In this document: positions 26,805-42,112 of the stretch, piece by piece
Layout: the number at the start of each line of letters is the position of its first letter
How positions within the stretch are numbered: position 1 is the stretch's first letter
NCBI GenBank assembly: GCA_016793845.1
Contig: JAEULI010000140.1
Span: 1-55,853, forward strand
DNA length: 55,853 nucleotides
Source of the DNA: Sphingosinicella sp.
Lineage (GTDB): Bacteria > Pseudomonadota > Alphaproteobacteria > Sphingomonadales > Sphingomonadaceae
Reading direction: 5' to 3'
The notes under the pieces: generated by a model
The model's database searches: none
Seen by the model: the letters and a program-made list of their open reading frames with translations, nothing else
Told to the model about the DNA's origin: nothing
Made by a program: the position numbers and the translations under genes

Positions 26805-26879
<75 letters not shown>

Positions 26880-27834: not shown

Positions 27835-28055
27835 GGATACGGCGCGAGAAGGGCTTGACGCAGGAAGAGGTGGAAGCCCTCTCGGGCTTCTCTCAGCAGT
27901 ATCTCAGCAGCCTTGAGAACGGGCGGCGTAACCCGACGATCATTACGCTCTACGAACTCGCGCAGGCACTCGGCGTAAGCCATGTGGAGCTGGTAATGGC
28001 GCCGACATCTATCGACGCATTGTCTCATAATGCGGTAAAGCCGCGAGCCCGATAG
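27771..28055 (+). CDS. XRE-family helix-turn-helix regulator, probably 5'-truncated
   Basis: The open frame gives 94 residues, but clear homology begins only around residue 21 (ARIRREKGLTQEEVEALSGF). It continues through a complete Cro/CI-type helix-turn-helix (SQQYLSSLENGRRNPTIITL) to ALGVSHVELVMAP. The first ~20 residues read backwards through the recombinase remnant and look foreign. The only upstream start in frame is GTG 27771, with no good ribosome binding site. Related stand-alone regulators have a short N-terminal helix before this point, so the natural start was probably lost in a deletion. DNA binding may survive if it is expressed. Confidence 0.6.
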   Translation: MRAEACVRWHHGCVPRARLPARIRREKGLTQEEVEALSGFSQQYLSSLENGRRNPTIITLYELAQALGVSHVELVMAPTSIDALSHNAVKPRAR

Positions 28056-28074
28056 CATTTCACTCATTCAGGCT

Positions 28075-28866
28075 ATGAACACCCCAATGCAGAGAACGAG
28101 CAAAAAGGAGGGCGGCACCCTTGAGGACCGGCAGGGCATCCAGTCCGTTGAAGTCGGGTTCCGTGTACTCGGTGCGCTGGTTGAAAGAAACTCGGCCTTG
28201 TCTCTGAAAGAGATTAGTGCGGCAGCGGGCCTCTCTCCCAGCAACACGCATCGCTACATGACCAGCCTGACACGCATTGGTCTTGCTCGCCAGATCAGCG
28301 ACGGCCGATATGACTTGGGGCCGCTTGCGCTCCGGTTCGGCTTTTCGGCGCTGGCGCGTCTGGACGTCATCGACATCTGCACAGAGCGAATGCGGGCCTT
28401 CTCGAACGCGACCGATATTTCGACCATGCTCTCCGTTTGGAGTGAACGGGGACCGATCATCCTGCGCTGGGTACAGGGGTCGCAGCCTGTCTTTTCGACG
28501 ATCAGCATAGGGTCGGTCATGCCATTGTTCGGATCGGCCACGGGTCAGATCTTTCTCGCCTATCAGGACAAGGGCCTGATCGACGCGGTACTGAAGGCGA
28601 ATCGCAAGCTCTCGGCGCAGGTGGCCCGGGTGGACCGCATGCGCATGGTGGAGGATGTACGCGCAGCAGGTATGGCAAGCGTGACAGGCGATCTGATCCC
28701 GGGTCTTCTGGCGGCAGCCTGTCCAGTGATAAATGGCTTCGGCGAGCTGGCAGCAGTCATTACGGCGGTCGCGTCGCACACCACACCGACAATCGAGAGC
28801 ATCGAGCGCTTCAAGGTGTGCTGTCAGGACGCATCGCGCGATCTGGGCTGGCACGGAGCCCTTTGA
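28075..28866 (+). CDS. IclR-family transcriptional regulator
   Basis: A 263-residue IclR regulator. The winged helix-turn-helix is at about residues 25-85 (VEVGFRVLGALVERNSALSL and AAAGLSPSNTHRYMTSLTRI), and the effector-binding domain runs from residue ~95 to the end. It sits at the edge of the salicylate/gentisate cluster, transcribed towards the nagL-like gene. Regulators of this family often act on aromatic pathway genes and bind the pathway substrate, so control of the divergent nagK/nagG promoters is the natural inference. The ribosome binding site is weak. Confidence 0.87.
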   Translation: MNTPMQRTSKKEGGTLEDRQGIQSVEVGFRVLGALVERNSALSLKEISAAAGLSPSNTHRYMTSLTRIGLARQISDGRYDLGPLALRFGFSALARLDVIDICTERMRAFSNATDISTMLSVWSERGPIILRWVQGSQPVFSTISIGSVMPLFGSATGQIFLAYQDKGLIDAVLKANRKLSAQVARVDRMRMVEDVRAAGMASVTGDLIPGLLAAACPVINGFGELAAVITAVASHTTPTIESIERFKVCCQDASRDLGWHGAL

Positions 28867-28899
28867 TCCGTAGCGGTCCAAAGGTAGCCTATAGTCGGC

Positions 28900-29535
28900 T
28901 TATGAAGGCTGATCTGGATGAGCGGCATGAAATGCCGGGTACGCCTCCGCGGTGGCGGCTTTCGCACACAGGAGCGGAAATGGCTTTAGATCGACATTGA
29001 AGCGCCTGGCATTGAACACCTGCGGGACCAGACAGAGGTCGACGATGCCCGGCCTGCTTCCCATGCAGAATACATCGGCGCGATTTCCCGCGAGCATCCT
29101 TTCAAGCGCATGGAAACCGCTGGCGACCCAACGAGCATACCACACATCTCGCGCGTCCGTATCCGCGCCGATTTCCGTTTCCAGATAGCGCAGCACGCGC
29201 AGGTTGTTGAGCGGGTGGATATCGCACATGATGATCTGCGCCATGGCGAGCGCCGACGCGCGTGCGGCCGGCTCTCCTGGAATAAGCCCGACATCAGGAT
29301 TGCGCCTGTCTAGACAGTCGATGATCGCAAGCGATTGGGTAAGCGTTTGCCCGTCGATCCGCAAAGATGGCACGAGGCCTTGCGGATTTACCGCCCGGAA
29401 TGCCGGACTGTCCTGCTCGCCGCCCCGGATATCCACCGTTAGCCGCTCATAGGTGAGCCCGCACAGGTTGAGAGCGATCCGAACACGATAGCTCGCCGAA
29501 GACCGCGGAAAATCATAAAGAACGATGCCGGCCAT
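28900..29535 (-). CDS. nagL: Maleylpyruvate isomerase (zeta-class GST)
   Basis: A 211-residue zeta-class glutathione transferase with SSASYRVRIALNLCGL at the glutathione site, NPQGLVPSLRIDG, QSLAIIDCLDRR and MCDIHPLNNLRVL. Next to a fumarylpyruvate hydrolase and a gentisate dioxygenase it most likely converts maleylpyruvate to fumarylpyruvate. Maleylacetoacetate isomerase activity is the alternative, since the two are close homologues. Its ATG overlaps the stop of the hydrolase gene by one base (TAATG). It differs clearly from the paralogue at 4224-4865. Confidence 0.83.
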   Translation of the reverse strand: MAGIVLYDFPRSSASYRVRIALNLCGLTYERLTVDIRGGEQDSPAFRAVNPQGLVPSLRIDGQTLTQSLAIIDCLDRRNPDVGLIPGEPAARASALAMAQIIMCDIHPLNNLRVLRYLETEIGADTDARDVWYARWVASGFHALERMLAGNRADVFCMGSRPGIVDLCLVPQVFNARRFNVDLKPFPLLCAKAATAEAYPAFHAAHPDQPS

Positions 29536-30230
29536 TAATTTCCCTTTGGCCCGACCGTGATCTCCAGAGTGGACAACCCCTCGATATCGACCGAGATTCG
29601 GTCGCCCGGAACGACCGCGCCGACGCCTGCCGGGGTTCCCGTATAAATGAGGTCGCCGGCGCGCAGGGGCCCGTAGTGACTGAGGTGCGAGATGATCTCC
29701 GCGCAGCTCCAGATCATGTCCCCGATATCAGCCTGTTGCCGCACGTCGCCGTTAACGCGCAGCACCAGCGAGCCAAGCGCGATGTGCCCTACCTGCGACA
29801 CCGGATGGATCACGCCGATCGGCGCGGATTCATCGAAGTTCTTGCCTGTATCCCAGGGCCGCCCCTGCTCTCTTGAGCGCATCTGGAGATCACGGCGCGT
29901 CATGTCGAGACCAGCTGCATAGCCGAAGATGATGGACAGCGCCTCCTGCGGCGTCAGATCAACGCCATCTCGGCCGATGGCGATGACAAGCTCACCCTCG
30001 AACTGAAAATCCTCGGTCGCGCGCGGATAGGCGATCATGCCGCCCGACGGCACGAGGCTGCCCGGAAACTTGGTGAAGAAGAAAGGCGGATCGCGCTCGT
30101 CCATCCCCATTTCGCGGGCGTGTGCGGCATAGTTCCTGCCCACGCAGAATATTCGCCCTACCGGGAACACGGCATCGTCCTGCGATGTCGCCACCACTGG
30201 CGCCTTGAGCGCCCTTACCACTCTCATCAT
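29535..30230 (-). CDS. nagK: Fumarylpyruvate hydrolase (FAH family)
   Basis: A 231-residue fumarylacetoacetate hydrolase-family enzyme. It carries IFCVGRNYAAHAREMG, the metal-binding EGELVIAIGRDG (Glu-x-Glu), DMTRRDLQMRSREQGRPWD, KNFDESAPIG and the C-terminal DLIYTGTPAGVG. In a gentisate cluster the expected reaction is fumarylpyruvate to fumarate plus pyruvate. ATG 30230 (or 30227) is favoured over 30257 because GAGG lies six bases upstream. It is divergent from the hydroxylase operon across a ~190-bp control region. Confidence 0.86.
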   Translation of the reverse strand: MMRVVRALKAPVVATSQDDAVFPVGRIFCVGRNYAAHAREMGMDERDPPFFFTKFPGSLVPSGGMIAYPRATEDFQFEGELVIAIGRDGVDLTPQEALSIIFGYAAGLDMTRRDLQMRSREQGRPWDTGKNFDESAPIGVIHPVSQVGHIALGSLVLRVNGDVRQQADIGDMIWSCAEIISHLSHYGPLRAGDLIYTGTPAGVGAVVPGDRISVDIEGLSTLEITVGPKGN

Positions 30231-30295
30231 TCCAATCCTCGCGTAGCTTTCCGGCATGCAGCGCCGGGCTCCATTGTCCCCAGCGTGGGCATTTT

Positions 30296-30323
30296 TACAT
30301 GTAGTTCCATAATATGCAATGTA
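30296..30323. promoter_or_regulatory. Putative IclR-type operator in the nagK-nagG intergenic region
   Basis: The segment TTCCATAATATGCAA (30305-30319) is a near-palindrome (TTNCAT-AAT-ATGNAA). It is enclosed by TACAT (30296-30300) and ATGTA (30319-30323), which are inverted repeats of each other. It sits midway between the two divergent starts, where an IclR regulator would control both arms. Assignment to the IclR protein is inference. Confidence 0.4.
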
Positions 30324-30418
30324 TTCACTATTGTGGATTTTGAGACGCGGCAGTATGGACGGTGAAAATTATCAGAATCGATGAGGGGTTCGCCCCTGCA
30401 GGGGAGAAGCAGAGCATC

Positions 30419-31669
30419 ATGAACCCCGCGGACACCGAAAGTCCCACTGCGCCTTCGTCGTGGCCCGCCGGCAATTTCAGCCGAATCCCGGCGTGGGCCT
30501 ACACGGACAAGGATGTTTACCAGAAGGAACTCGACCGTTTCTTCTATGGTCCGCACTGGAGCTACGTGGGACTCGAGGCCGAAATCCCTGAGGCCGGCTC
30601 GTTCAAGCGCACCAAGATCGGCGAACGTTCGGTCATCATGGTGCGCCACCGTAGCGGCGCCGTGCATGTCCTCGAAAACCGCTGCGCGCACCGTGGTATG
30701 CGCTTCTGCCAGGAACGGCACGGCAAGGCTCGCTCCTTCACGTGCCCTTACCACCAGTGGACCTACAACCTCGAAGGCAAGCTCCTTGGCGTTCCCTTTC
30801 GCAACGGCGTGAAGGGCAAGGGCGGCATGGACAAGGATTTCCAGCTCGAGGACCACGGCCTTTCGAAGCTGAAGGTCGCCGTTCGCAACGGCGTCGTCTT
30901 CGCATCCTTCAGCGAGGATGTCCCGTCGTTCGAGGACTATGTCGGGCCGACAGTCCTGCCATGGTTCGACCGCACGTTCGATGGGCGAAAGCTTGTCCTC
31001 CACGGTTATTCGCGCCAGCGCATTCCGGGCAACTGGAAGCTGATGCTGGAAAACATCAAGGATCCGTACCATCCCGGGCTGCTCCACACCTGGTTCGTGA
31101 CGTTCGGGCTATGGCGCGCCGACCAGCAGTCCACGTTGTTGATGGACGATCACGGGCGCCATGCCTGCATGATCTCGCAGCGCAACGAGGGCGGCAAGGC
31201 GGACGTGACCGAGGGTGTCACCAGTTTTCGAGAAAACATGAAGCTGAACGACCCCAGCCTCCTCGATATCGTTCCGGAACCATGGTGGGGCGGCCCGACC
31301 GTGTGCATGATCACGCTGTTCCCGAGCGTCATCCTGCAGCAGCAGGTCAATTGTCTGTCGACACGCCAGATCATCCCCTGCGGTCCGGACGCGTTCGACT
31401 TCGTGTGGACGCACTTCGGCTTCGAGGAGGACACGCCGGAGATGCACGAGCGCCGCCTGAGGCTCGCCAACCTCTTCGGTCCCGGCGGCTTCGTCTCCGC
31501 CGATGACGGCGAGGTGGTTGAAATGAGTCAGGACGGTTTCCATCACGATCCGGCCTTCACGACTGTCTGTGAACTCGACGGAACCAAGATCGGCAATACC
31601 GACCACAATGTCAGTGAAACACTGATCCGCGGCATGTACCGCTATTGGCGGGAGGTGATGGAACTGTGA
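30419..31669 (+). CDS. nagG: Salicylate 5-hydroxylase, large oxygenase subunit
   Basis: A 416-residue Rieske non-haem iron oxygenase alpha subunit. The Rieske ligands are Cys89, His91, Cys109 and His112 (ENRCAHRGMRF and TCPYHQWTYN). The mononuclear iron site is in ENIKDPYHPGLLHTWF. Phrases such as YVGLEAEIP, GNWKLM and DIVPEPWWGGPT closely resemble NagG as I recall it, and the gentisate genes next door agree with a salicylate to gentisate reaction. ATG 30419 is preferred to GTG 30362. The stop overlaps the small-subunit start. Ferredoxin and reductase must come from elsewhere. Another benzoate-type substrate cannot be excluded. Confidence 0.87.
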   Translation: MNPADTESPTAPSSWPAGNFSRIPAWAYTDKDVYQKELDRFFYGPHWSYVGLEAEIPEAGSFKRTKIGERSVIMVRHRSGAVHVLENRCAHRGMRFCQERHGKARSFTCPYHQWTYNLEGKLLGVPFRNGVKGKGGMDKDFQLEDHGLSKLKVAVRNGVVFASFSEDVPSFEDYVGPTVLPWFDRTFDGRKLVLHGYSRQRIPGNWKLMLENIKDPYHPGLLHTWFVTFGLWRADQQSTLLMDDHGRHACMISQRNEGGKADVTEGVTSFRENMKLNDPSLLDIVPEPWWGGPTVCMITLFPSVILQQQVNCLSTRQIIPCGPDAFDFVWTHFGFEEDTPEMHERRLRLANLFGPGGFVSADDGEVVEMSQDGFHHDPAFTTVCELDGTKIGNTDHNVSETLIRGMYRYWREVMEL

Positions 31670-32148
31670 ACGTCACTCCCGACCTTGCGCTGCGCGCCGA
31701 GATTCAGGATCTCTACGCCGAATACGCATCGTGTCTTAACGAGCCGCGCTTCGAAGAGTGGCCAGAGCTGTTCTGCAAAACCGGTCAATACAAGCTCGTC
31801 CCACGCGAAAATCATACCGCAGGACTTGGGCTCGCAACGATTGCCCTGAGCAGTCGCGCCATGATGAAGGACCGCATCTATGGCGCTTCGAACACGCTGT
31901 TCCATGCGCCCTATTACCAGCGGCATATCATCAGCCTGCCGCGGCTGCGGCTTGAGGAAGACGGCAGCGTCCGTGCCACCACGAACTATGTGGTGTTCCG
32001 CACCAAATACGACGCGATGACCGACATCCTGAACGCGGGCGTTTACCACGATCATATCGTTCGTGAGAACGGCGCGCTGCGCTTCGCCGAAAAACTGTGC
32101 GTGTACGACAGCGAACTCATCCCAAACTCCATCATCTATCCGATCTGA
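31666..32148 (+). CDS. nagH: Salicylate 5-hydroxylase, small oxygenase subunit
   Basis: A 160-residue ring-hydroxylating oxygenase beta subunit with the cystatin/NTF2-like fold. The start LRAEIQDLYAEYASCLNEPR and the core RIYGASNTLFHAPYYQRHI are typical of NagH-type small subunits. GTG 31666 overlaps the TGA of the large subunit (GTGA) and is preceded by GGGAGG, so the two subunits should be made in equal amounts. It has no cofactor and serves structure in the hetero-oligomer. Confidence 0.85.
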   Translation: MNVTPDLALRAEIQDLYAEYASCLNEPRFEEWPELFCKTGQYKLVPRENHTAGLGLATIALSSRAMMKDRIYGASNTLFHAPYYQRHIISLPRLRLEEDGSVRATTNYVVFRTKYDAMTDILNAGVYHDHIVRENGALRFAEKLCVYDSELIPNSIIYPI

Positions 32149-32157
32149 GGCCTGGCC

Positions 32158-33219
32158 ATGACGACCCAACGATGGAACGACGAGCGCGCCGATCTCGACG
32201 AAGATTGGCGCAAGGCGCTTCAAGACGCCAACCTCGCCCCGCTGTGGGATGTGCTCGCAGCACTCGTAACACCGACACCGCAGGGCCGTATGGAGGCCGC
32301 CGCCTGGTCCTATGAAACGGTAAGACCGCTGCTGATGAAGGCAGGCGAGCTGATCAGCGCAGCGCGCGCGGAACGCCGTGTCCTCATTCTCGAAAACCCT
32401 GCCACACCCGGCGAATCCCGAATCACCGACACTCTTTACGCGGGCCTTCAGCTCATTCTGCCGGGCGAGGTGGCGCCCGCGCATCGTCATACCCAGTCGG
32501 CGCTGCGTTTCATCATGGAAGGCTCTGGCGCGTTCACGGCGCTCGACGGCGAACGCATCTACATGGAAAAGTACGACCTGATCCTCACCCCGAACTGGGT
32601 GTGGCACGATCACGGCAACGAGACCAACGAAGCGATGGTCTGGCTGGATGGCCTGGATATCCCGCTGCTGAAATCTCTCGATGCCAGCTTTGCCGAGCAC
32701 CGCCCTGATCGCGGCGCTTGCCCACCCGGCCGCGCGGACGGAGACACGCGGGAACGCTGGGGCCGGAATCTGCGCCCGGTTCGCGGTGTCGCGCCAGACC
32801 GGACCGCCAATCCGCTCTACACCTACCCGTTCAGCGAATGGAGCAGGACGCTGACGGCGATGGAGGCTTCTGACCCGCCGTATCCGCACGAAGGATATCG
32901 CCTCGAATTTCGCAACCCGCTGGACGGCGGCGCAGTGATGTCGACGATATCGGCATTCGCTCAAAGCGTTCCGGCCGGCTTTCACACGGCACCGATGCGC
33001 TCGACCGACGGCACGATCTTTGTCGTCGTTTCCGGAACCGGCACGATTATGATCGATGATCGAGAGTTCGCGCTGTCGGAAGGCACAGTTGTGGTCGCAC
33101 CATCCTGGAGCACACGCAGGATCCTTGCCAACGAGCGCCTTATCCTGTTTAGCTATTCCGATCGAACAGTGCAGGAAAAACTGAACCTCTGGCGCGAAGA
33201 ACTGCTGCCGGCCGATTGA
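32158..33219 (+). CDS. nagI: Gentisate 1,2-dioxygenase
   Basis: A 353-residue bicupin ring-cleavage enzyme that opens gentisate to maleylpyruvate. The N-terminal cupin has the iron site APAHRHTQSALRFIMEG (HxH) and a third His in NWVWHDHGNET. The C-terminal cupin (GFHTAPMRSTDGTIFVVVSG) lacks the metal ligands, as is usual for the family. Length is normal. It lies 9 bp after nagH, in the same operon as the hydroxylase. The gene converges with the hydrolase of the second module, and no terminator is visible in the 42-bp gap. Confidence 0.9.
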   Translation: MTTQRWNDERADLDEDWRKALQDANLAPLWDVLAALVTPTPQGRMEAAAWSYETVRPLLMKAGELISAARAERRVLILENPATPGESRITDTLYAGLQLILPGEVAPAHRHTQSALRFIMEGSGAFTALDGERIYMEKYDLILTPNWVWHDHGNETNEAMVWLDGLDIPLLKSLDASFAEHRPDRGACPPGRADGDTRERWGRNLRPVRGVAPDRTANPLYTYPFSEWSRTLTAMEASDPPYPHEGYRLEFRNPLDGGAVMSTISAFAQSVPAGFHTAPMRSTDGTIFVVVSGTGTIMIDDREFALSEGTVVVAPSWSTRRILANERLILFSYSDRTVQEKLNLWREELLPAD

Positions 33220-33261
33220 TTGTCGGACCGGCTGCATGTTTAAGCCATCACAGCGGTTTTT

Positions 33262-34089
33262 CTACTTTCTGAAGAAATCGAGGGTGATCCTGCAAAACGC
33301 TTCAGGATACTCGATCATAACCCAGTGTCCGCAGTTGGCGAAGATTGCTCCATCCGCCTGGGGAATGGATTGGATCTGCTCGAAGACTCTGCGTACGGGC
33401 ACCATCACGTCGTTCTTCCCGCCCACGACGAGAACCGGCATGGCCAATGAAGCGAGCTGTTCGGGAGCGTAATAGAGGCCGTTTTCGAAGGCCCATGCCA
33501 TGATGGCCTTGTAGGCCGCTGCCGTGCCAGGCCGCTGCACGGCCTCAAAACGATAGCGCACAATTTCGTCCGAAGGCTCGTAGCTGTGTGTAAGGGCGCC
33601 GATAATGCGCCTCATACCTTCTTCGGTGCCATTGTAGGCCATGACCGGTGCGAGGTCTTGTTTGTTCTTGAGCATGTCTTCGCGCGACAGGTTGATTGCC
33701 GCCCCCATCAGCACAAGCTTGGCGATGCGATCCGGCGCTTGCAGGGCGGCGCCACATGCTGTCGTACCGCCCATGCTGTTGCCGATCAGGCAGACATCTT
33801 CAAGATCGAGCGCCTTGAGGAAATTCACAAGATGATCCGTCCGTGCGCTTTGCGTATAGGCGAAGTTCTCGGGATCGGGTGCATCTGTCAGGCCGAAGCC
33901 GACCATGTCATAAGCGATGACGCGCATGTGTTTTGCATAGGCCGGAAAGTTGGTTTCGAAGTTCGAGCGACCATCGGCGCCGGCTCCGCCGCCGTGAACG
34001 AGAACAAGTGGGCGACCTTCACCCTGTTCTACATAATGGGTCCGTATTCCGCCCGCATCGATGTATCTGCTTTCAAACTGCTCGAACAT
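33262..34089 (-). CDS. Alpha/beta hydrolase (meta-cleavage product hydrolase type)
   Basis: A 275-residue hydrolase of the MhpC/BphD/CarC type that cleaves C-C bonds in ring-fission products. The oxyanion region is [11 protein letters not shown], the nucleophile elbow GNSMGGTTA (Ser), the Asp is in [11 protein letters not shown] and the His in [12 protein letters not shown]. It is the third gene of a minus-strand operon behind LigA-like and LigB-like extradiol dioxygenase genes (39-bp gap), which supports action on a 2-hydroxymuconate-type intermediate with a side chain. The exact substrate is unknown. Confidence 0.86.
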
Positions 34090-34128
34090 TTTTCACCTCA
34101 TGTTTCGGAATTGATCGCGGCAACCGGA

Positions 34129-34950
34129 TCAGGCCGCGAGCTTCATGACGATACCGGCCATTGCCGTGCGCCATGCGTAAATGGGCTCGTAGAATACGCG
34201 TTCCGCGCGGGCTCCGTTCACGGCGGCGGCCATCATGAGCCAGTTGACGATTTCGACACCGCCGTTTCCGCCATTTCTGGTGATTTCTGCCGTGGTCCAG
34301 CCTGCAGCCTGCTCATAGGCGCCTGTCTCGAAGAGACGGATAATCTCTTCGTCCCATTGCGGATTCAGCTCGCCATCACGTTCGACATTCAGCCAATGGG
34401 ACAAACCGCCCGTGGCGATAATCGCCGCTTTTTCTTCGGCGGGCCTGGTTTCGCGGATATAGGCCCCCAGTGTCAGGCCCAGGTTCCAGCAGCGCTGAGG
34501 AGATGGAATGGGCTGCATGTTGATATTCACATTGATCACGACGGTTGGAATTTTTCGCGTCGGGTTTGCGAACATCAAGGGCACGACCACACCATGGTCT
34601 GGCTTGAAGCCTTCTTCTTCCAGACGTGCCAGATCGAATGCGCGCTCCGCGGCGAAATGCACGAACCCGTCGGCGAACGCCGAGTGGCCTTGAAAACTTT
34701 CGGTGGGCAAGTCCATGTCGCCAAACGGCGTTAGTTGGTCGCCTGTCGATACGGATAGCGGCACCTGAAGTGCGGACGTGACATTGAACATGTGATCATC
34801 GCTTATGACGATAATCACATCTGGCGCAGCCTCTGCGATTTGGCGCCCGATAGACTTGAATCCGTTGAATACATTTGCGGCTTGTTGTTCTATGCCTTCG
34901 TCGCTGCACAGAATATGAGATTGTGCGACAGCGGCAACGATCTTGCCCAT
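34129..34950 (-). CDS. Class III extradiol ring-cleavage dioxygenase, LigB-like catalytic subunit
   Basis: A 273-residue LigB-family subunit expected to carry non-haem Fe(II) and cleave a catechol next to its hydroxyls. Candidate iron and active-site residues are His12 (AAVAQSHIL), His53 (VIISDDHMF by homology; seen as VIVISDDHMFN), the His in KPDHGVVVPL and the His in ATGGLSHWL. It is not close enough to protocatechuate, gallate or 2'-aminobiphenyl-2,3-diol enzymes for me to name a substrate. It follows the LigA-like gene by 17 bp, so the pair probably form one enzyme. Confidence 0.84.
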   Translation of the reverse strand: MGKIVAAVAQSHILCSDEGIEQQAANVFNGFKSIGRQIAEAAPDVIIVISDDHMFNVTSALQVPLSVSTGDQLTPFGDMDLPTESFQGHSAFADGFVHFAAERAFDLARLEEEGFKPDHGVVVPLMFANPTRKIPTVVINVNINMQPIPSPQRCWNLGLTLGAYIRETRPAEEKAAIIATGGLSHWLNVERDGELNPQWDEEIIRLFETGAYEQAAGWTTAEITRNGGNGGVEIVNWLMMAAAVNGARAERVFYEPIYAWRTAMAGIVMKLAA

Positions 34951-34967
34951 GGCCTTACTCCTGATTT

Positions 34968-35270
34968 TCAGTTTGTTGAGCTGGCGTCGCCCGAGAGAAC
35001 TTCGGCACGAAAGCGCTCCTCATACACTTTCCAAGAAAGGTGATGCTGGGCCTCCTCGGAAACCTGCAGAGCATACAGAATCTGCAGCACAGGAGGCACG
35101 CCGGCTTCCATGAAATCTTTCCAGTCCCCGCTACGGAAGCCCTGACTCTCTTCGTTCGTGAGCGCATAGCGGTCGAAAAGCGCATCCAGGCCATCGTTCG
35201 CCAGTATCGTGTGCGCTTCGGAGCGTTTGTGCACGAGATCGTTGATCATGCGATTGGCATTGGTTGCCAT
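34968..35270 (-). CDS. LigA-like alpha subunit of class III extradiol dioxygenase
   Basis: A 100-residue helical protein of the LigA family that caps the active site of the LigB partner. The start MATNANRMINDLVHKRSEAH and the segment LTNEESQGFRSGDWKDFMEAG are typical: a short N-terminal helix, then the LigA signature. The start at 35270 is chosen over 35309 because AGGA lies close upstream. It is the first gene of the minus-strand operon, with a probable operator about 130 bp upstream. Confidence 0.8.
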   Translation of the reverse strand: MATNANRMINDLVHKRSEAHTILANDGLDALFDRYALTNEESQGFRSGDWKDFMEAGVPPVLQILYALQVSEEAQHHLSWKVYEERFRAEVLSGDASSTN

Positions 35271-35398
35271 GCGAATCCTGCCATCCGACACTGGCTCTCT
35301 CCCCTCCACAGTATGTTTTCTGTTCGAAGCTCGCCGCTCGTGGGCAGGCGACGATGCTGCGACTCAAACGATAGCGTTGCCTCGTACAGCGCACAATA

Positions 35399-35425
35399 TT
35401 TTTATTCGACCAAATAAATTATGAA
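35399..35425. promoter_or_regulatory. Putative TetR operator/promoter, site 1
   Basis: TTTATTCGACCAAA (35401-35414; TTTGGTCGAATAAA on the minus strand) is a near-palindrome between the ligA-like gene and tetR. Read on the minus strand it extends into a 25-bp block matching site 2 at 36281-36305 at about 22 positions. On that strand TTTCAT and TAAAAA lie 16 bp apart and flank the core like -35 and -10 boxes, so a bound repressor would block the ligA promoter. Confidence 0.6.
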
Positions 35426-35491
35426 ACAAATGAGGGCATTCGCTTGACTTGTTGTCATTTGGGGAATCCGCTAACCGCGCCAGTGGTGGAT

Positions 35492-36229
35492 ATGAGAGGC
35501 GCTGTTTTGGCGAATGAAAAAAAGCGAGGCGGCGGCGCATGGGCGAAGAACCGGGCGCGATCGGCCGAAAACCTCATAGATTTCGATTTTATCGCCGTCC
35601 TGGATTTTGCAGCCCCCTTGAAGCGTATGCAGAAACGCTCGATGGAAAGTCGGGCGCGCCTTGTCGAGGTCTCGTGTGATGCCTTCATGCGCAGGGGCTA
35701 TGAAAGTGTCTCCACCCATGATGTCGCCGCCGCCGCGGGGGTGACACAGGGGCTGATCGTCTATCACTTCAGCTCGAAGGAGGGGCTTTGGCAGGCCGCG
35801 ATGGACCGTGTGTTCGGTGACTTTCGAAACAGCCTTGCCACGTGTCTTCGTGATCTCAAGGGGCGCGATGAAAGAACCGTGATTTCGGAGATGATTCGTC
35901 ATGTGGTTGGACTAGAGCAGCGTTATCCTTCCATCGCCCGTTTCATGATTGAAAGTGGGAAAGAGGCGGACCAGCATCTCGTCTGGCTTCTGCACCGGCA
36001 TATCAAACCGATTTACGATGTCATTTCGCACATTTTTGAAGTGGCGCAGCGACGCGGAATCCTAAGGGCCTTGCCAATCACGAATGCCTACTATGTGCTG
36101 CTGACGGCCGGTTCGATCTTCTCGCTGGAAGACGAGATAAAGCTGATTGCCGGGCAGAACATTAAATCACACACATTCGCGGAGGCGCATGTGCAGTGCC
36201 TTACGCAGATGCTTCTTAGCGACGCCTGA
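35492..36229 (+). CDS. TetR-family transcriptional regulator
   Basis: A regulator of up to 245 residues. The helix-turn-helix domain is at about residues 50-95 (RLVEVSCDAFMRRGYESVST, then HDVAAAAGVTQGLIVYHFSS), followed by a helical ligand-binding domain. The ~45 residues before the helix-turn-helix are longer than normal, so ATG 35627 (MQKRSMESRARL) is a possible alternative start; ATG 35492 has GGTGGA upstream. It lies between the divergent ligA operon and the TonB receptor gene, both preceded by the same palindrome, and is their likely repressor. The inducer is presumably the pathway substrate. Confidence 0.82.
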   Translation: MRGAVLANEKKRGGGAWAKNRARSAENLIDFDFIAVLDFAAPLKRMQKRSMESRARLVEVSCDAFMRRGYESVSTHDVAAAAGVTQGLIVYHFSSKEGLWQAAMDRVFGDFRNSLATCLRDLKGRDERTVISEMIRHVVGLEQRYPSIARFMIESGKEADQHLVWLLHRHIKPIYDVISHIFEVAQRRGILRALPITNAYYVLLTAGSIFSLEDEIKLIAGQNIKSHTFAEAHVQCLTQMLLSDA

Positions 36230-36280
36230 ACGCCGGATTTCCCAAGCGCTGACGAAAATCATGCAGGTAAATTATATGCA

Positions 36281-36305
36281 TTCATAAATTATTTGATCGA
36301 ACAAA
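36281..36305. promoter_or_regulatory. Putative TetR operator, site 2
   Basis: TTTGATCGAACAAA (36292-36305) is a near-palindrome preceded by TTCATAAATTA. The block repeats the sequence found on the minus strand at 35401-35425. It lies about 75-95 bp upstream of the TonB receptor start, with AT-rich promoter-like sequence (TATGAT, 36310-36315) right after it. Confidence 0.6.
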
Positions 36306-36377
36306 AAATTATGATATCACCCACCCTCAAAGCGACACAGGTCGCTGTACAAACAAACAACAGGAGGAGTGGGGAGG

Positions 36378-38597
36378 GTGAAAAATCATCTTCGACAGGT
36401 ATCATCTCTGGTCGCTGTGGTCATTGCGTGCGGCCCAAGCTTGTGTCTTGCTCAGACGCAAGGCATCGAGGAGATCGTCGTAACGGCCGAAAAGCGCGCC
36501 AGCAGCGCTCAGAAAACGCCGATTGCGCTTTCTGCATTCGATCAGGGTCTTCTTGATCAAAAAGGTGTTCAGGATGTCACCGGCCTTCAGGCGCAGGTGC
36601 CTAGCTTGAAATTCACCGTGCCGCAGGGTGTCGCCCAGATCACGCTGCGCGGTGCTGGCAATGATTCCGTGACGACGGGTGCCGACAATGGCGTGGGCTT
36701 CCACTATGATGGCGTCTACATCGGCAATCCGGCTGGAAGCCTCGCGGACATCTGGGATGTCGAGCGTGTCGAGGTTCTGCGCGGCCCGCAGGGCACGCTG
36801 TATGGCAGAAACACGACGGGCGGTGCAATCAACATAATCCCGGCGAAGCCCTCTGATGTCTTCGAAGCAAAGGGTGATATAACTTACGGCAGCGAGGATT
36901 TGCTGCGTATGCGTGCTGCGATCAACGTGCCTTTGGCGGATGGCGTGGCGGCACGCTTGGCCGCAACACATGCGCTGCGTGACGGGTATCTGAAAAATAC
37001 GTATCCCGGCGGCAGGGATGGAGATGATCTCGATCTCTGGACAGCGCGTGGTATTCTCTCGATCGAACCTACGGATAGCCTGCGGTTCACGCTAATGGCG
37101 ACCTATGCGGAAAATGACGATAATTCGGTGAGCCCCGTGCGTGCCGGTGCGTCTTATCCCCGTGGCGGCCCGGCAAATCTGATTACCAGTATCTACTCGA
37201 CGGTTCCGCCGAAATCTTCCGACCCGCGGCGCACGAACAAGAATGCCGACGAATTCACACTTCTGCGCTTTTACGGTGTTTCGGGAACAGTGGAATGGGA
37301 TTTCGAGCCGGCGATGCTGCGGTCATCGACATCCTACTATAAATCGAGGCGTAGGGTCTTCAGCGACTGGGACGACTCACCGCTCGACTATGTGTCGGTC
37401 GATACGGGTGACAAGGGGCATCAGTTTACACAGGAACTCACAATGATCTCCAACCCTGGCTCGAAGTTGGATTATATCTTCGGAGCCTATCTCTACAATT
37501 TCGATAACGACAATAAAGTTTTCGTCGATATCGGAGAAATTGACGGAAGTATGGTGGGGCCGTTTTTCGGCACCGATCTCTTTCTGGACGTAATCGATTC
37601 GTTGAAGCTGCGTTCGCGTGCGGTTTACGGACAGCTCACATACCATTTCACAGATTCCCTGCGTCTCACGGGCGGTCTGCGATACACGTGGGACAAGAAG
37701 TCGAGTACTTCGCTTGTTCACCCGCCCGTGGTTGGAACGCCGCCGGCCGCGCCGCCGCCGACCTTCTACGTTCCCTTTGACATCCACGCGAAATGGGAAG
37801 AGCCAACCGGAAAAATCGCGCTGGATTATGAACTCTCCAGAGACAATATGATCTATGCGCTCTATTCGCACGGCTACAAGGCAGGTGCCATCAATCCGCA
37901 GGATCCCGCCACGCCATCGACGGACAAGGAACTCGTCGATTCCTGGGAAGTTGGCACCAAGAACTATTTTCTGGATCGGACCTTGCAGTTCAACGTGTCC
38001 GCGTTCTACGCGAAATACAATGACATCCAGATCAATATCTTTCCTGTAACGAGTGCCGTTCTGGTGAACGTTCCGGGAGGAACGGCCAAGGGCATAGAGA
38101 TGGATTTCATCATCGAGCCAACCGATAATTTCCGGATCGATGGCGCATTCGGTTATATTGATAGCGGCTATAAAAGCTTCGTGACTGGGAATCCGGCTTT
38201 CCCTACTGGGCCCAACAGCCTGCGCCAGGATCAGATCGGCAACAATCCGTTGATCAATACACCGAAGTATTCGGTGTCCCTCGGTGGCCAGTATCGGTTC
38301 GACACGGAGGCAGGAGAGTTCACGCTTCGCGCAGATCACGCGATGCGAAGCCGGCTGAATTTTGATATCTTCGCCAATGCCGATATGCAGCAGAAAGCGA
38401 GTACCAAGACGGATCTGCGTCTGAGCTGGAAATCACCATCGCAGACCATCACAGCGCAGATCTTCGTGCAGAATATCGAGAACTCCGATGTGAAGGTCAC
38501 AATGCTGCGTCCCGGTGGCATTCTTGGCGCAGATGTGCCCCTTGCTTGGTACGCAGCGCCACGCACCTGGGGCGCGAGCGTCGGTTTCAACTTCTAA
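36378..38597 (+). CDS. TonB-dependent outer-membrane receptor
   Basis: A 739-residue receptor with a signal peptide (VVIACGPSLCLAQ) and a TonB box (IEEIVVTAEKR). The plug domain runs to about residue 160 (ITLRGAGNDSVTTGADNGVG and VEVLRGPQGTLYGRNTTGGA), and a 22-strand barrel ends in the terminal aromatic GFNF. GTG 36378 is preferred over GTG 36369 because AGGAGGAG is then eight to ten bases away. Its place between the TetR gene and a phenol-type hydroxylase points to uptake of an aromatic compound rather than iron, as for other sphingomonad receptors in catabolic clusters. That is inference. Confidence 0.9.
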   Translation: MKNHLRQVSSLVAVVIACGPSLCLAQTQGIEEIVVTAEKRASSAQKTPIALSAFDQGLLDQKGVQDVTGLQAQVPSLKFTVPQGVAQITLRGAGNDSVTTGADNGVGFHYDGVYIGNPAGSLADIWDVERVEVLRGPQGTLYGRNTTGGAINIIPAKPSDVFEAKGDITYGSEDLLRMRAAINVPLADGVAARLAATHALRDGYLKNTYPGGRDGDDLDLWTARGILSIEPTDSLRFTLMATYAENDDNSVSPVRAGASYPRGGPANLITSIYSTVPPKSSDPRRTNKNADEFTLLRFYGVSGTVEWDFEPAMLRSSTSYYKSRRRVFSDWDDSPLDYVSVDTGDKGHQFTQELTMISNPGSKLDYIFGAYLYNFDNDNKVFVDIGEIDGSMVGPFFGTDLFLDVIDSLKLRSRAVYGQLTYHFTDSLRLTGGLRYTWDKKSSTSLVHPPVVGTPPAAPPPTFYVPFDIHAKWEEPTGKIALDYELSRDNMIYALYSHGYKAGAINPQDPATPSTDKELVDSWEVGTKNYFLDRTLQFNVSAFYAKYNDIQINIFPVTSAVLVNVPGGTAKGIEMDFIIEPTDNFRIDGAFGYIDSGYKSFVTGNPAFPTGPNSLRQDQIGNNPLINTPKYSVSLGGQYRFDTEAGEFTLRADHAMRSRLNFDIFANADMQQKASTKTDLRLSWKSPSQTITAQIFVQNIENSDVKVTMLRPGGILGADVPLAWYAAPRTWGASVGFNF

Positions 38598-38604
38598 GAA
38601 ATTT

Positions 38605-38639
38605 GCACTACTGCGAGCCGAATAGTGGCTCGCAGTGGT
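38605..38639 (+). terminator. Hairpin between receptor and monooxygenase genes
   Basis: A 14-bp stem (CACTACTGCGAGCC with GGCTCGCAGTGGTG, one G-T pair) and a 7-nt loop follow the receptor stop by 7 bp. There is no T run, so it may stabilise the upstream message or attenuate read-through into the monooxygenase instead of stopping transcription fully. Confidence 0.5.
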
Positions 38640-38667
38640 GTCCACTTGAACACGGCAGGGAAATCGA

Positions 38668-40449
38668 ATGGAATCGCACGCCGCCCGGATAGAAACCAGT
38701 GTGCTCATTATAGGGGCGGGGCCGGCAGGGGCTGCGGCGGCGGCTTTGCTGGCGACTTACGGCATCGAAAACGTGATGATCAACAAGTACGGCGGGGTCG
38801 CAAATTCACCTCGTGCTCACATCACGAACCAGCGCGCAGTGGAGGTTTTTCGTGACCTTGGACTTGAACGCGATCTGATCGCGGTTGCGACGCCGCAAAG
38901 TCTCATGGGTGAGCATGTTTACGCGACCAGCCTTACCGGCCGCGAGCTTGGACGTCTACGAACCTGGTATACGCATCCACACTTCAAGGCGGAGCATGAT
39001 CTGGCGAGTCCCTGCTCGGTCTGCGACGTACCGCAGGACCTTCTGGAACCAATACTCGTAAACGCCGCTGCTCTTCGCGGAACCGCAGTCCGCTTTAACA
39101 CGGAGCTTCTATCCTTCGAGCAGGACGATAATGGTGTTAGCGCCAGAGTGATCGACCGCCTCACGGGGATGGAGAGCACTATTCGCTGCCAATACATGAT
39201 CGGTGCGGACGGTGCGAATTCGCTGGTCGCGCGGCTTCTCGACCTGCCATTCGAAGGTCACATGAACCTCGGCGGTTCCATCAATGTGGTGTTCAAGGCC
39301 GACCTTGAACGCTTTTGCGCTCATCGGCCGGGCGACATGTACTGGTTTCTCAAACCCGGTGTCGGCATGGGAGGTAACGGTGTCGGTGTCCTGCGCATGG
39401 CGCGCCCATGGACGCGGTGGGTCGGTGTTTGGGGTTATGATATAAACGGGGCGAAGCCAGATCTCAGTCACGAGTTCGGTGTCCGGATAGCACACGCGCT
39501 CATTGGTGATGACAGCATCTCCGTTGAGATCGAATCCATGTCGACCTGGACCGTCAATGACGTTTTCGCGCTCGACAACATGAAGGGACGGGTTTTTTGC
39601 GTTGGCGATGCCGTCCATCGCCATCCGCCCATGAACGGGCTCGGCTCGAATACCAGTATTCAGGACAGTTACAATCTAGCCTGGAAATTGGCACTGGTCT
39701 TGCGTGGTGTAGCGTCGCCATCGCTGCTTGAAACTTACCGCGACGAACGCGTGCCGGTTGGCCGGCAGATTGTTCGGCGTGCGAATGAGAGCATGCATAC
39801 ACTGCCTGCGATTTTCCAGGCGCTTAATCTGTCGAGCGCACCGGATGAAGAAACTCTGGAAAGCGCGATAAATTCGCTAAGCGAGCCTGGGGAGGTCGCA
39901 AAACGGAAACGGCATGCCTTTGAGGATGCCTTGCAGGCCAGCATCATAGGCTTCAACACACTTGGCGTGGAAACCAATCAGAATTACCATTCTGCGGCGG
40001 TGATTGACGATGGCGAACCAGAGCCCGCCTATTCTCGCGATGAAGAACTCTATTACAATCCGAGCACAAAGCCCGGTCGACATTTGCCGCACCTCTGGCT
40101 GATCAAGGATCAGCGTCGTGTCTCTATCTTTGACCTCTGCGGTAAGGGACGCTTTACTGTGCTCACCGGGGTTGGAGGCGAAATCTGGCATGATGCGGCG
40201 CGCGCTGTTTTCGAGCGGCTGGGTGTGCAGATTGTCGTTCGAACCATCGGGCGAGGCTGCAATTATGAAGATAGCTACGGTGATTACCGCCGTTTATCGG
40301 GGGTCGATGACGATGGTGCATTGCTGATCAGACCCGATCATGTGGTCGCGTGGCGCTCGCAAAAGGGCCCCGATTCGTCTCCTGAAGAGCTTCTAAATGT
40401 ATTCGAGGAAATTCTAGGAAAATCAACCTGCACTTCTGGGCCTTCATGA
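38668..40449 (+). CDS. FAD-dependent aromatic monooxygenase (TfdB/MhpA type)
   Basis: A 593-residue group A flavin monooxygenase. The FAD motif GAGPAGAAAAALLATYGI is near residue 16, the DG motif MIGADGANSLVARLLD near 173, and the GD motif FCVGDAVHRHPPMNGLG near 310. A C-terminal thioredoxin-like domain closes the protein, as in phenol hydroxylase and 2,4-dichlorophenol 6-monooxygenase. It should add an ortho hydroxyl to a phenol and so supply the catechol for the LigAB-like dioxygenase. ATG 38668 follows AGGGA. The natural substrate is not identifiable. Confidence 0.86.
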   Translation: MESHAARIETSVLIIGAGPAGAAAAALLATYGIENVMINKYGGVANSPRAHITNQRAVEVFRDLGLERDLIAVATPQSLMGEHVYATSLTGRELGRLRTWYTHPHFKAEHDLASPCSVCDVPQDLLEPILVNAAALRGTAVRFNTELLSFEQDDNGVSARVIDRLTGMESTIRCQYMIGADGANSLVARLLDLPFEGHMNLGGSINVVFKADLERFCAHRPGDMYWFLKPGVGMGGNGVGVLRMARPWTRWVGVWGYDINGAKPDLSHEFGVRIAHALIGDDSISVEIESMSTWTVNDVFALDNMKGRVFCVGDAVHRHPPMNGLGSNTSIQDSYNLAWKLALVLRGVASPSLLETYRDERVPVGRQIVRRANESMHTLPAIFQALNLSSAPDEETLESAINSLSEPGEVAKRKRHAFEDALQASIIGFNTLGVETNQNYHSAAVIDDGEPEPAYSRDEELYYNPSTKPGRHLPHLWLIKDQRRVSIFDLCGKGRFTVLTGVGGEIWHDAARAVFERLGVQIVVRTIGRGCNYEDSYGDYRRLSGVDDDGALLIRPDHVVAWRSQKGPDSSPEELLNVFEEILGKSTCTSGPS

Positions 40450-40466
40450 ATATGAGGCATTTTTTT
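40441..40466 (+). terminator. Probable rho-independent terminator
   Basis: A short stem CCTTCAT/ATGAGG with a 4-nt loop overlaps the monooxygenase stop and is followed by seven Ts (40460-40466). The stem is weak, but the arrangement fits the end of the receptor-monooxygenase unit. Confidence 0.45.
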
Positions 40467-40691
40467 GAGCAGAAGAGCCGCTACAAACTTCCTTAAAAAA
40501 TCTAAATCAATTCGATAAATTTTCTGCGCATAACCTTGGCTTTGACGCCGTTTTTGACTGGAATGGTTCGGAATTCGGATTGCCATATCGGCCAATCGAC
40601 AATCAGGCTGACCTGAACCCTGGAAGTTGGCCCGTTTTGTGTGAGAAATTCTCGGTTAGGTTTGGCTGGAGCCGACTGAGGGGATTTCTGG

Positions 40692-40958
40692 ATGAAAACG
40701 TCGAAGTTTAGCGAGCAGCAGATCGCTTTCATACTGCGGCAGGCGGAGAAAGGGACGACGGTTGAGGAGGTCTGTCGGAAGGCGGGGATTTCGGTTCAGA
40801 CGTACTATCGATGGCGCAGCAAATATGGTGGGTTGATGCTGTCGGAGATGAAGCGGCCGAAGCTTCTCGAGGAGGAGAACGTCCGGCTGAAGCGCCTGGT
40901 GGCGAACCGCAGTCTGGACAAGGAGATGTTGCAGGACGTTATCCGCCGAAAGCTGTGA
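40692..40958 (+). CDS. IS3-family transposase OrfA
   Basis: An 88-residue helix-turn-helix protein beginning MKTSKFSEQQIAFILRQAEK, with the motif VCRKAGISVQTYYRWRSKYG. A leucine-zipper-like C-terminal helix (LLEEENVRLKRLVANRSLDK) is normally used in dimerisation. It is intact, but the partner orfB is destroyed, so frameshifted OrfAB transposase cannot be made from this copy. Confidence 0.88.
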   Translation: MKTSKFSEQQIAFILRQAEKGTTVEEVCRKAGISVQTYYRWRSKYGGLMLSEMKRPKLLEEENVRLKRLVANRSLDKEMLQDVIRRKL

Positions 40959-41791
40959 GGCCTGGTCGAGCTCGCGAGATCGTCGGCTATTTGCAGGCGA
41001 GTTATCAGGTGAGCGAGCGACGTGCCTGTAAGGCGTTTCCGATCCATCGATCGACGAAGCGCTATCAGTCACGTCGTCCCGACCAGGCCCCCTTGAAGAT
41101 GCGGATCAAGGATCTTGCGGCGACGCGCGTGCGCTATGGCTATCGGCGTATCCATGTTCTGTTGCAGCGCGAAGGTTGGCTGATCAATCACAAACGAACA
41201 CATCGCCTTTACAACGAGATGGGGCTGTAACTGCGCAAGAAGGCGCCAAAAACGCCGGGTGAAGGCAAAGCTTTGCGAGGATCGCTGTCCCGCCGCAGCG
41301 CCGAACGACTGCTGGTCGATGGACTTCCTGTCTGATCAGCTCTTTGACGGCCGGAAGATCCGTATCCTGTCCATCATCGACAATTACAGCCAGCTGTCAC
41401 CGCATTGGATGCGAGGATGACCTATCGCGGTAGCGATGTCGTTGACACGTTGGAACGCCTGGCGATGACTTATGGTCGATCACGACGGATCAGGGTCGAT
41501 CAAGGCCCAGAGTTCATATCGAAGGACCTCGATCTCTGGGCCTGGACCCATGACGTAACGCTGGACTTCTCCCGGCCCGGGAAGCCCACCGATAATGCGT
41601 TTGCTGAATCCTTCAATGGTCGGGTTCGTGCCGAGTGCCTCAATGTAAACTGGTTCTTGAGCTTGGCGGATGCGCGGCTAAAATGTGAGGCGTGGCGGCT
41701 CGACGACAACACGGTCCGTCCGCACAGCTCCCTCGGCAACCAAACCCCGGTGGAGCGCGCTTTTGGATCAGGGCAGGCATGCCTTCCCTGA
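40955..41791 (+). pseudogene. IS3-family transposase OrfB, broken
   Basis: An orfB remnant in several pieces. REIVGYLQASYQVSERRACK to YNEMGL ends at a stop at 41228, where relatives read on. WSMDFLSDQLFDGRKIRILS and IDNYSQLSPH follow in another frame. TYRGSDVVDTLERLAMTYGR, DQGPEFISKDLD and PGKPTDNAFAESFNGRVRAE lie in the last part. The DDE catalytic residues fall in separate pieces. At least one nonsense change and two frameshifts make it non-functional. Confidence 0.85.
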
Positions 41792-41894
41792 TCCAAACAG
41801 GCCGGTCTTTCTCGCAATGACCGGACCAAAGATGGGGTGAGGGTCAATAGCCGAAACTCTCTCTTTCAAAGCGGACCAGTTTTCAGGGGGGCAA

Positions 41895-42112
41895 CAATTT
41901 CCATCGGCCCATGGCGCCTTTAAAGGACAAACTCCCTATGAAGCCCTCCGTGAACGGTTATAATCGATGAACCGCCGTGTCTCGGCCGTCACCCAAGGCT
42001 ACAAGAAATAAAGCACAGCCGGCTCCCCCAAACGAGCGCGGTTTTCACCGCGTTCGAGAGTCTGGAACGGACCGGGCAATCAAAAAACTGAACGAGTACG
42101 GCACCCTGCGCC
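41895..42112. other. Intergenic remnant with no recognisable gene
   Basis: Between the insertion element and the beta-propeller gene there are about 220 bp with no convincing reading frame, hairpin or repeat. A 78-residue frame at 41977-42213 overlaps the end of the propeller gene on the other strand and resembles no family I know. The stretch may be the scar of a rearrangement. Confidence 0.4.

Follow-up and report, generated by a model that had tools for sequence, protein, structure and literature searches.

The window analysed here, 55,853 nucleotides of contig JAEULI010000140.1 from Sphingosinicella sp. (assembly GCA_016793845.1), carries a cluster of aromatic-breakdown genes which, judging from the enzyme families encoded, could probably carry a two-ring phenol through most of the steps leading to central metabolism. 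The contig belongs to a genome of 3.28 Mb in 187 contigs, estimated to be about 83% complete. An original prediction, made from the DNA letters, had described positions 33262–40449 as a possible undescribed module for aromatic uptake and meta-cleavage. The six families it had listed are all present there, and the outer ends of the module are exact ends of open reading frames (ORFs). Pfam matches support the hydrolase, the LigB subunit, the TetR_N domain, the TonB plug and barrel and the FAD_binding_3 plus Rng_hyd_C monooxygenase; the LigA-like subunit is a weaker case, linked by phmmer to CarBa. The module does not stand alone: it runs on into a salicylate 5-hydroxylase and gentisate gene set directly to its left (28075–33219), which had been overlooked and which belongs to the same cluster. 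The genes, whose reading frames are intact, are listed below (G220, G559 and G403 are other genomes with related genes).

28075–28866, plus strand: IclR-family regulator (Pfam IclR_C, HTH_IclR)
28900–29535, minus strand: maleylpyruvate/maleylacetoacetate isomerase of the glutathione S-transferase type (TIGR01262, 251.8 bits, cut-off 171.05)
29535–30257, minus strand: fumarylpyruvate-hydrolase-like FAH protein (Pfam FAA_hydrolase, 7.3e-58; 56% identical to the G220 cluster copy)
30362–31669, plus strand: Rieske oxygenase large subunit, probable salicylate 5-hydroxylase of the NagG type (65% to a plasmid protein annotated NagG, H72; 72% to the G220 copy)
31645–32148, plus strand: Rieske oxygenase small subunit (Pfam SnoaL_4, Ring_hydroxyl_B)
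32158–33219, plus strand: gentisate 1,2-dioxygenase (TIGR02272, 446.9 bits, cut-off 442.1)
33262–34089, minus strand: meta-cleavage product hydrolase of the DxnB2 type (Pfam alpha/beta hydrolase, E 3.5e-31; 73.8% over 275 residues to the G220 copy)
34129–34950, minus strand: catalytic subunit of a class III extradiol dioxygenase, LigB/CarBb type (Pfam LigB, 2.8e-38)
34968–35309, minus strand: small subunit, LigA/CarBa type (CarBa homologue by phmmer; an ATG at 35270 is a possible true start)
35444–36229 (ORF as listed), plus strand: TetR regulator (TetR_N, 1.1e-12; 60% to the TetR of the G559 cluster)
36369–38597, plus strand: TonB-dependent receptor, of uncertain membership in the pathway (Pfam Plug, TonB_dep_Rec_b-barrel)
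38668–40449, plus strand: flavin monooxygenase of the HbpA group, a predicted 2-substituted phenol 3-hydroxylase (FAD_binding_3 plus Rng_hyd_C, tree)

The monooxygenase had been labelled TfdB-type, an assignment that phylogeny does not bear out. Plain identity is too close to decide (52.1% to TfdB, 50.9% to HbpA). In a tree of 11 rows, of which a single one is TfdB, the window protein groups with HbpA, the G220 and G559 copies and a Rhodococcus plasmid protein (97/92), TfdB lies outside this group and the G403 protein lies outside both. A TfdB identity was discarded on this tree, though plain identity slightly favours it, and by sequence the enzyme is of the HbpA type. The G220 monooxygenase is placed nearer to the HbpA of Pseudomonas azelaica than to the window protein, and the latter belongs to a sublineage different from that of the G220 and G559 clusters. 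Among the positions named in the HbpA structure paper, 14 of 17 are kept, including H48 and D117, each of which leaves HbpA without product when mutated (PMC4515095). Fifteen positions were also compared with the TfdB of pJP4, the window being HbpA-like at 13 and TfdB at 11; the pocket residues M223 and M321 are kept in the window and replaced by L and T in pJP4 TfdB. The nearest sampled relative (56%) comes from Rhodococcus pyridinivorans Y6, where it sits in a run of TetR, monooxygenase, VOC-family and hydrolase genes.

The ring-cleaving enzyme is related to those of carbazole degraders. The nearest named relatives of its LigB subunit are the CarBb proteins of pCAR3 (45.3%) and pCAR1 (39.4%). 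The closest relative found is the G403 copy (55%), with which it forms one branch (100/99) in a tree that does not fix the place of this pair relative to the two CarBb. More distant solved relatives retrieved by phmmer are gallate dioxygenase (1.1e-23), LigB (1.1e-16) and an MhpB-type enzyme (9.8e-13). H12, H53, H185 and E233, which we take from LigAB to be iron ligands and base, are kept in 12 of 12 aligned LigB rows, the window included. The small subunit reaches 16.6 bits with Pfam LigA, below the cut-off of 25.3; phmmer searches of a small collection of ORFs from the neighbourhood of LigB genes link it to two CarBa proteins (1.5e-6 and 1.7e-6; in reverse, 2.8e-7 and 3.7e-6). The predicted enzyme thus resembles CarBaBb in its two subunits, a LigB-fold catalytic one with iron-ligand and base positions kept and a small one homologous to CarBa. 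CarBaBb is 2'-aminobiphenyl-2,3-diol 1,2-dioxygenase (PMC10992316). The window LigB was also considered as a recent copy of a car-like block in a genome of the same genus (G085), a candidate discarded at 43.8% identity. That block (Rieske match, CarBa, CarBb and hydrolase; L030:8276-11356) shares its contig with a match to the right flank of the window.

The hydrolase is, by sequence, a close orthologue of DxnB2 from Sphingomonas wittichii RW1, as seen through the G220 copy. The latter equals in 275 of 275 residues the chain printed for PDB 4lxg, which we take to be RW1 DxnB2, and G220 is very probably RW1. Independent support comes from gene order, since hydrolase, Rieske alpha, Rieske beta and isomerase follow each other in G220 as published for Swit_3055 (dxnB2) to Swit_3058; in RW1, dxnB2 precedes a putative salicylate 5-hydroxylase and an isomerase, and DxnB2 has been described in connection with dibenzofuran degradation (PMC3425912). 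In the hydrolase tree, the window protein groups with those of G220 and G559 (96/94) and next with that of G403 (98/100). Its nucleophile, Asp and His motifs, to which we assign their customary roles, are present. High identity to a characterised pathway, which the original prediction had named as evidence against an undescribed module, thus holds for the hydrolase (74% to a characterised enzyme) but not for the dioxygenase.

In the left half, the Rieske pair is a probable salicylate 5-hydroxylase of the NagG type by sequence; its large subunit scores 382.7 against the AndAc model (cut-off 750). Together with the gentisate dioxygenase, isomerase and FAH protein, these families serve the route from salicylate via gentisate to fumarate and pyruvate. 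The closest plasmid-borne Rieske large subunit (72.5%) lies in a gentisate cluster of Blastomonas RAC04 (L096:2771-10616), among whose listed features there is no such monooxygenase or extradiol gene. The claimed lack of a hydratase or aldolase holds for 28000–41900, where none was otherwise seen, but not for the genome: contig C140 carries genes for an acetaldehyde dehydrogenase and an aldolase, both above their cut-offs (476 against 282 and 573 against 286 bits), and for a hydratase-like protein below its own (267 against 408.8). Five more hydratase-family matches, all weaker, are located on other contigs or next to these genes.

The linkage of these genes recurs in other genomes. A search with the hydrolase gave matches at E 1e-85 or better in 2 of the 397 genomes sampled from the family (own and G220) and at 1e-75 or better in 3 of the 396 sampled from the order (own, G559 and G403); the two samples overlap, and the own genome is in both. 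A monooxygenase of the HbpA/TfdB family lies within about 10 kb in all four genomes with a DxnB2-type hydrolase, those of the other three being 50–53% identical to the window's. G220 and G559 have in common an HbpA-group monooxygenase, TetR, the DxnB2-type hydrolase, the Rieske pair, isomerase, gentisate dioxygenase and FAH protein. In G559, isomerase, FAH, gentisate dioxygenase, monooxygenase, class I extradiol and TetR genes occupy one strand, and the hydrolase and both Rieske subunits the other; G220 has the same set over about 16 kb, plus a PhyH-family gene and two TonB-receptor matches (26–27%). For both extradiol enzymes the best NCBIfam model is biphenyl-2,3-diol 1,2-dioxygenase, below cut-off, and neither the 40 kb read in G220 nor the stretch read in G559 gave a LigB match. 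SWIT3046, a chromosomal extradiol gene reportedly needed by RW1 on dibenzo-p-dioxin, may be the class I gene of the G220 cluster. The back end (hydrolase, TetR, Rieske pair and gentisate enzymes) is common to the window, G220 and G559, and the ring-cleaver is not.

The class III enzyme itself recurs in G403, from another family of the order (stretch G+C content, GC, 48%), as a compact run of monooxygenase (50%), LigA (32%), LigB (55%) and hydrolase (55%). A look for the same gene set in other genomes had been proposed as a check; the trio is present in G403, whereas G220 and G559 carry a class I extradiol gene and no LigAB in the stretches read. As the trio recurs in a second family, a chance neighbourhood is unlikely. 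The G403 run adjoins an AraC-type regulator and catechol meta-cleavage genes, pointing to a catechol route there. At L108:15563-19638 of that genome lie a second LigB-family gene, a 2-hydroxymuconic semialdehyde dehydrogenase (over cut-off) and a 2-oxo-3-hexenedioate-decarboxylase-like gene (under cut-off).

With LigB as query (1e-45 or better, own included), 7 of 298 family and 2 of 385 class genomes were retrieved. In the six other family genomes, LigB adjoins a hydrolase 43–46% identical to the window's, and monooxygenase matches in the 18–19 kb read around it reach only 24–26%. At E 1e-120 or better, the monooxygenase had matches in 8 of 397 family genomes, one of them the own genome. Among the seven others, five neighbourhoods were read (all but G174 and G196), and only G220 has a DxnB2-type hydrolase nearby; the 18 kb read in G278, G108 and G393 contains neither a hydrolase nor a LigB match, and G058 gave only distant ones. 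In G058, a LigB match (25%), a monooxygenase (43%) and a hydrolase match (28%) are consecutive on one strand (L029:7309-10975), perhaps another independent class III set. No near-identical plasmid copy was found in PLSDB at megablast sensitivity (5 records, none covering 80%), and no description of such a module was found among the papers listed by full-text searches, whose coverage leaves out most subscription papers.

A pathway that fits can be named, contrary to the original prediction: the hbpCAD genes of Pseudomonas azelaica (PMC4358378). Through the hbp genes, 2-hydroxybiphenyl yields benzoate and 2,2'-dihydroxybiphenyl yields salicylate, with 2-hydroxypentadienoate as the second product in both cases; sal and dmp genes adjoin them (PMC4358378; PMC7466150). 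Like the window, the hbpCAD and sal systems (Pseudomonas azelaica/nitroreducens HBP1, Aramco J) combine an HbpA-group monooxygenase, extradiol cleavage, a C–C hydrolase and nearby salicylate genes (PMC4358378; PMC7466150). They differ from it in several respects. The window extradiol enzyme is class III (LigAB/CarB type, Pfam LigB) and not class I, its hydrolase is of the DxnB2 type, no sigma-54-dependent HbpR occurs among the 12 genes at 28075–40449, whose regulators are IclR and TetR, and salicylate would be channelled via gentisate instead of catechol. HbpC we take to be a class I (VOC-fold) enzyme.

Three other systems are close to parts of the cluster. The dxnB2 cluster of the RW1 chromosome (Swit_3055 onward, as read in G220) shares the hydrolase (74%), the Rieske pair (72% and 53%), the isomerase, gentisate dioxygenase, FAH, TetR and an HbpA-group monooxygenase, but differs by its class I extradiol gene, its broken tetR and the lack of any LigB match in the stretch read. 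In carBaBb-carC (pCAR1, pCAR3), a homologous LigA-LigB-hydrolase block is found (LigB 39–45%, hydrolase 42–46%), in front of which the window has a flavin monooxygenase in place of an angular Rieske dioxygenase; carbazole enzymes are functionally analogous to those of dibenzofuran breakdown (PMC10992316). Finally, the opp genes of Sphingomonas haloaromaticamans P3 provide a sphingomonad 2-phenylphenol pathway with flavin monooxygenase, dioxygenase and hydrolases; unlike the window, the dioxygenase there is annotated as a 3-methylcatechol 2,3-dioxygenase and the product is benzoate, with a ben/cat route (PMC5527002). The finding is thus less unknown than had been thought: it follows the hbp plan, with a ring-cleaver of the CarB type and an outlet through gentisate. 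Its logic is that of hbpCAD plus sal genes; what is new is the class III ring-cleaver and the exit by way of gentisate.

On balance, we consider it probable, with clear reservations, that the locus encodes an upper pathway of the hbp kind with a class III ring-cleaver, connected to a lower pathway from salicylate to gentisate. From gene families, protein comparisons and gene order, we infer the following substrates, reactions, uptake and regulation for this organism. A 2-arylphenol, most likely 2,2'-dihydroxybiphenyl and perhaps imported by the receptor, would be hydroxylated to the 2,3-diol by the HbpA-group monooxygenase; LigAB would open the diol ring beside the aryl group, and the DxnB2-type hydrolase would split the cleavage product into salicylate and 2-hydroxypenta-2,4-dienoate. 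The NagGH-type oxygenase would then convert salicylate to gentisate, which gentisate dioxygenase, isomerase and hydrolase would take to fumarate and pyruvate. The most economical substrate would be a compound that yields salicylate on hydrolysis, namely 2,2'-dihydroxybiphenyl or a relative. The dienoate would fall to a hydratase, an aldolase and a dehydrogenase encoded outside the cluster, the use of those on C140 being an assumption, and TetR and IclR probably control the two halves. In the chain originally proposed, ortho-hydroxylation, class III cleavage and C–C hydrolysis fit the families present, whereas uptake is a guess by analogy: the TonB-dependent receptor DdvT imports a biphenyl compound in SYK-6 (PMC6874591), but the surroundings of the G559 and G403 clusters gave no TonB-receptor match, and those of the G220 cluster only distant ones.

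Several further points weigh against this reading. Among the named enzymes found, none comes closer to the window LigB than 45% identity, and monooxygenase matches of the same stringency (E 1e-120) also turn up in family genomes where the module is not seen. The C140 hydratase falls below family cut-offs, and its neighbours, a CoA ligase and a thiolase-like gene, suggest another main role. HbpA is broad and takes many 2-substituted phenols (PMC7466150), so that the aryl group of the substrate is not proven. Furthermore, the G403 trio shows no salicylate or gentisate gene match within the 20 kb searched; with its catechol neighbours and a monooxygenase outside the HbpA group, it indicates that the trio need not yield salicylate. 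These last two observations also favour an alternative in which the substrates of the upper enzymes are 2-alkylphenols or further 2-substituted phenols without an aryl group, and the gentisate genes form a separate salicylate pathway linked by chance. The GC per gene, 57–62% in the gentisate half and 55–57% in the rest, is in line with this alternative. Nonetheless, linkage holds in three genomes (own, G220, G559) despite altered internal order, the Rieske pair directly follows the hydrolase on the same strand in G220 and G559, and DxnB2 and CarBaBb have been described for dibenzofuran and carbazole metabolites (PMC3425912; PMC10992316). We consider this alternative unlikely.

The cluster could also be the lower half of a dibenzofuran or carbazole pathway, with an angular dioxygenase encoded elsewhere producing the biphenyl diol and the monooxygenase as an accessory. 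The association of DxnB2 with dibenzofuran degradation in RW1 (PMC3425912), CarBb as the closest named LigB and five further, unclassified Ring_hydroxyl_A matches elsewhere in this incomplete genome are compatible with it. We hold it to be rather improbable, as the window's is the sole LigB match above 30% identity in the genome, so no separate car-like cluster is seen, and the monooxygenase, for which an angular pathway has no need, is linked in each of the four genomes with this hydrolase. A protocatechuate or gallate 4,5-cleavage pathway, or one resembling MhpABC, has in its favour the solved relatives retrieved for the dioxygenase, namely gallate dioxygenase, LigB and an MhpB-type enzyme. 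It is very improbable: these similarities are weak against the full-length 45% to CarBb, all 11 NCBIfam models listed for the window LigB remain below cut-off, and the hydrolase matches 4lxg at 3.7e-141 but an MhpC-type entry only at 3.9e-25.

Regarding the genomic setting, GC drops from 63–67% in the flanks to 54–62% over 27–42 kb, in two steps (gentisate half about 60%, rest about 56%), and this stretch is bounded by a tRNA-Thr gene (26805–26879) and an IS3-type element. The pieces of its transposase (HTH_21, rve) form separate ORFs at 40811–41791, just past the monooxygenase gene. A simple island at the tRNA gene was discarded: the tRNA end was not seen a second time in the window, and in four of the five relatives of the genus the sequence read beyond the left flank, about 17.5 kb, gave no match to the right side of the window (in the fifth, the contig ends there). 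The left flank (to 26880) matches 5 of 5 other genus genomes and the right flank (from 48697) 4 of 5 at length, but the two are not adjacent; in the single-contig G201 they lie about 612 kb apart on the same strand. This separation may reflect a rearrangement, a large deletion or a bin or assembly joint; even so, the linkage of the two cluster halves stands, backed by G220 and G559. Within the cluster, the TetR_N domain starts at residue 75 of the listed ORF, and the true start, read by eye, is probably the ATG at 35627; no operator palindromes were found in the 35270–35640 gap. The tetR frame is intact, unlike that of G220, which is in three pieces with two insertions (IS21-type genes and a DDE transposase ORF; L024:16202-18122, L025:606-1064).

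Beyond the pathway itself, what is of interest is that the class III trio occurs in a second family and that the class of the ring-cleaver differs inside a conserved gene context. We tentatively suggest, at somewhat less than an even chance, both that a separate class III lineage of the 2-hydroxybiphenyl type (HbpA/TfdB-family monooxygenase, LigA, LigB and DxnB2-type hydrolase) exists in at least two families and that the chromosomal dxnB2 locus of RW1 is a biphenol-to-gentisate pathway whose ring-cleaver is exchangeable between two unrelated folds. The placement of the G403 monooxygenase outside the HbpA group lowers this estimate. If true, the second hydrolase of the dibenzofuran degrader RW1 natively serves biphenol breakdown, which suggests a native role for DxnB2, so far known from dibenzofuran work. 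What appears to be one catabolic plan is carried out, within one gene context, by ring-opening enzymes of two unrelated kinds, a natural instance of fold replacement, and the Sphingosinicella locus is a candidate cluster for the breakdown of hydroxybiphenyl biocides.

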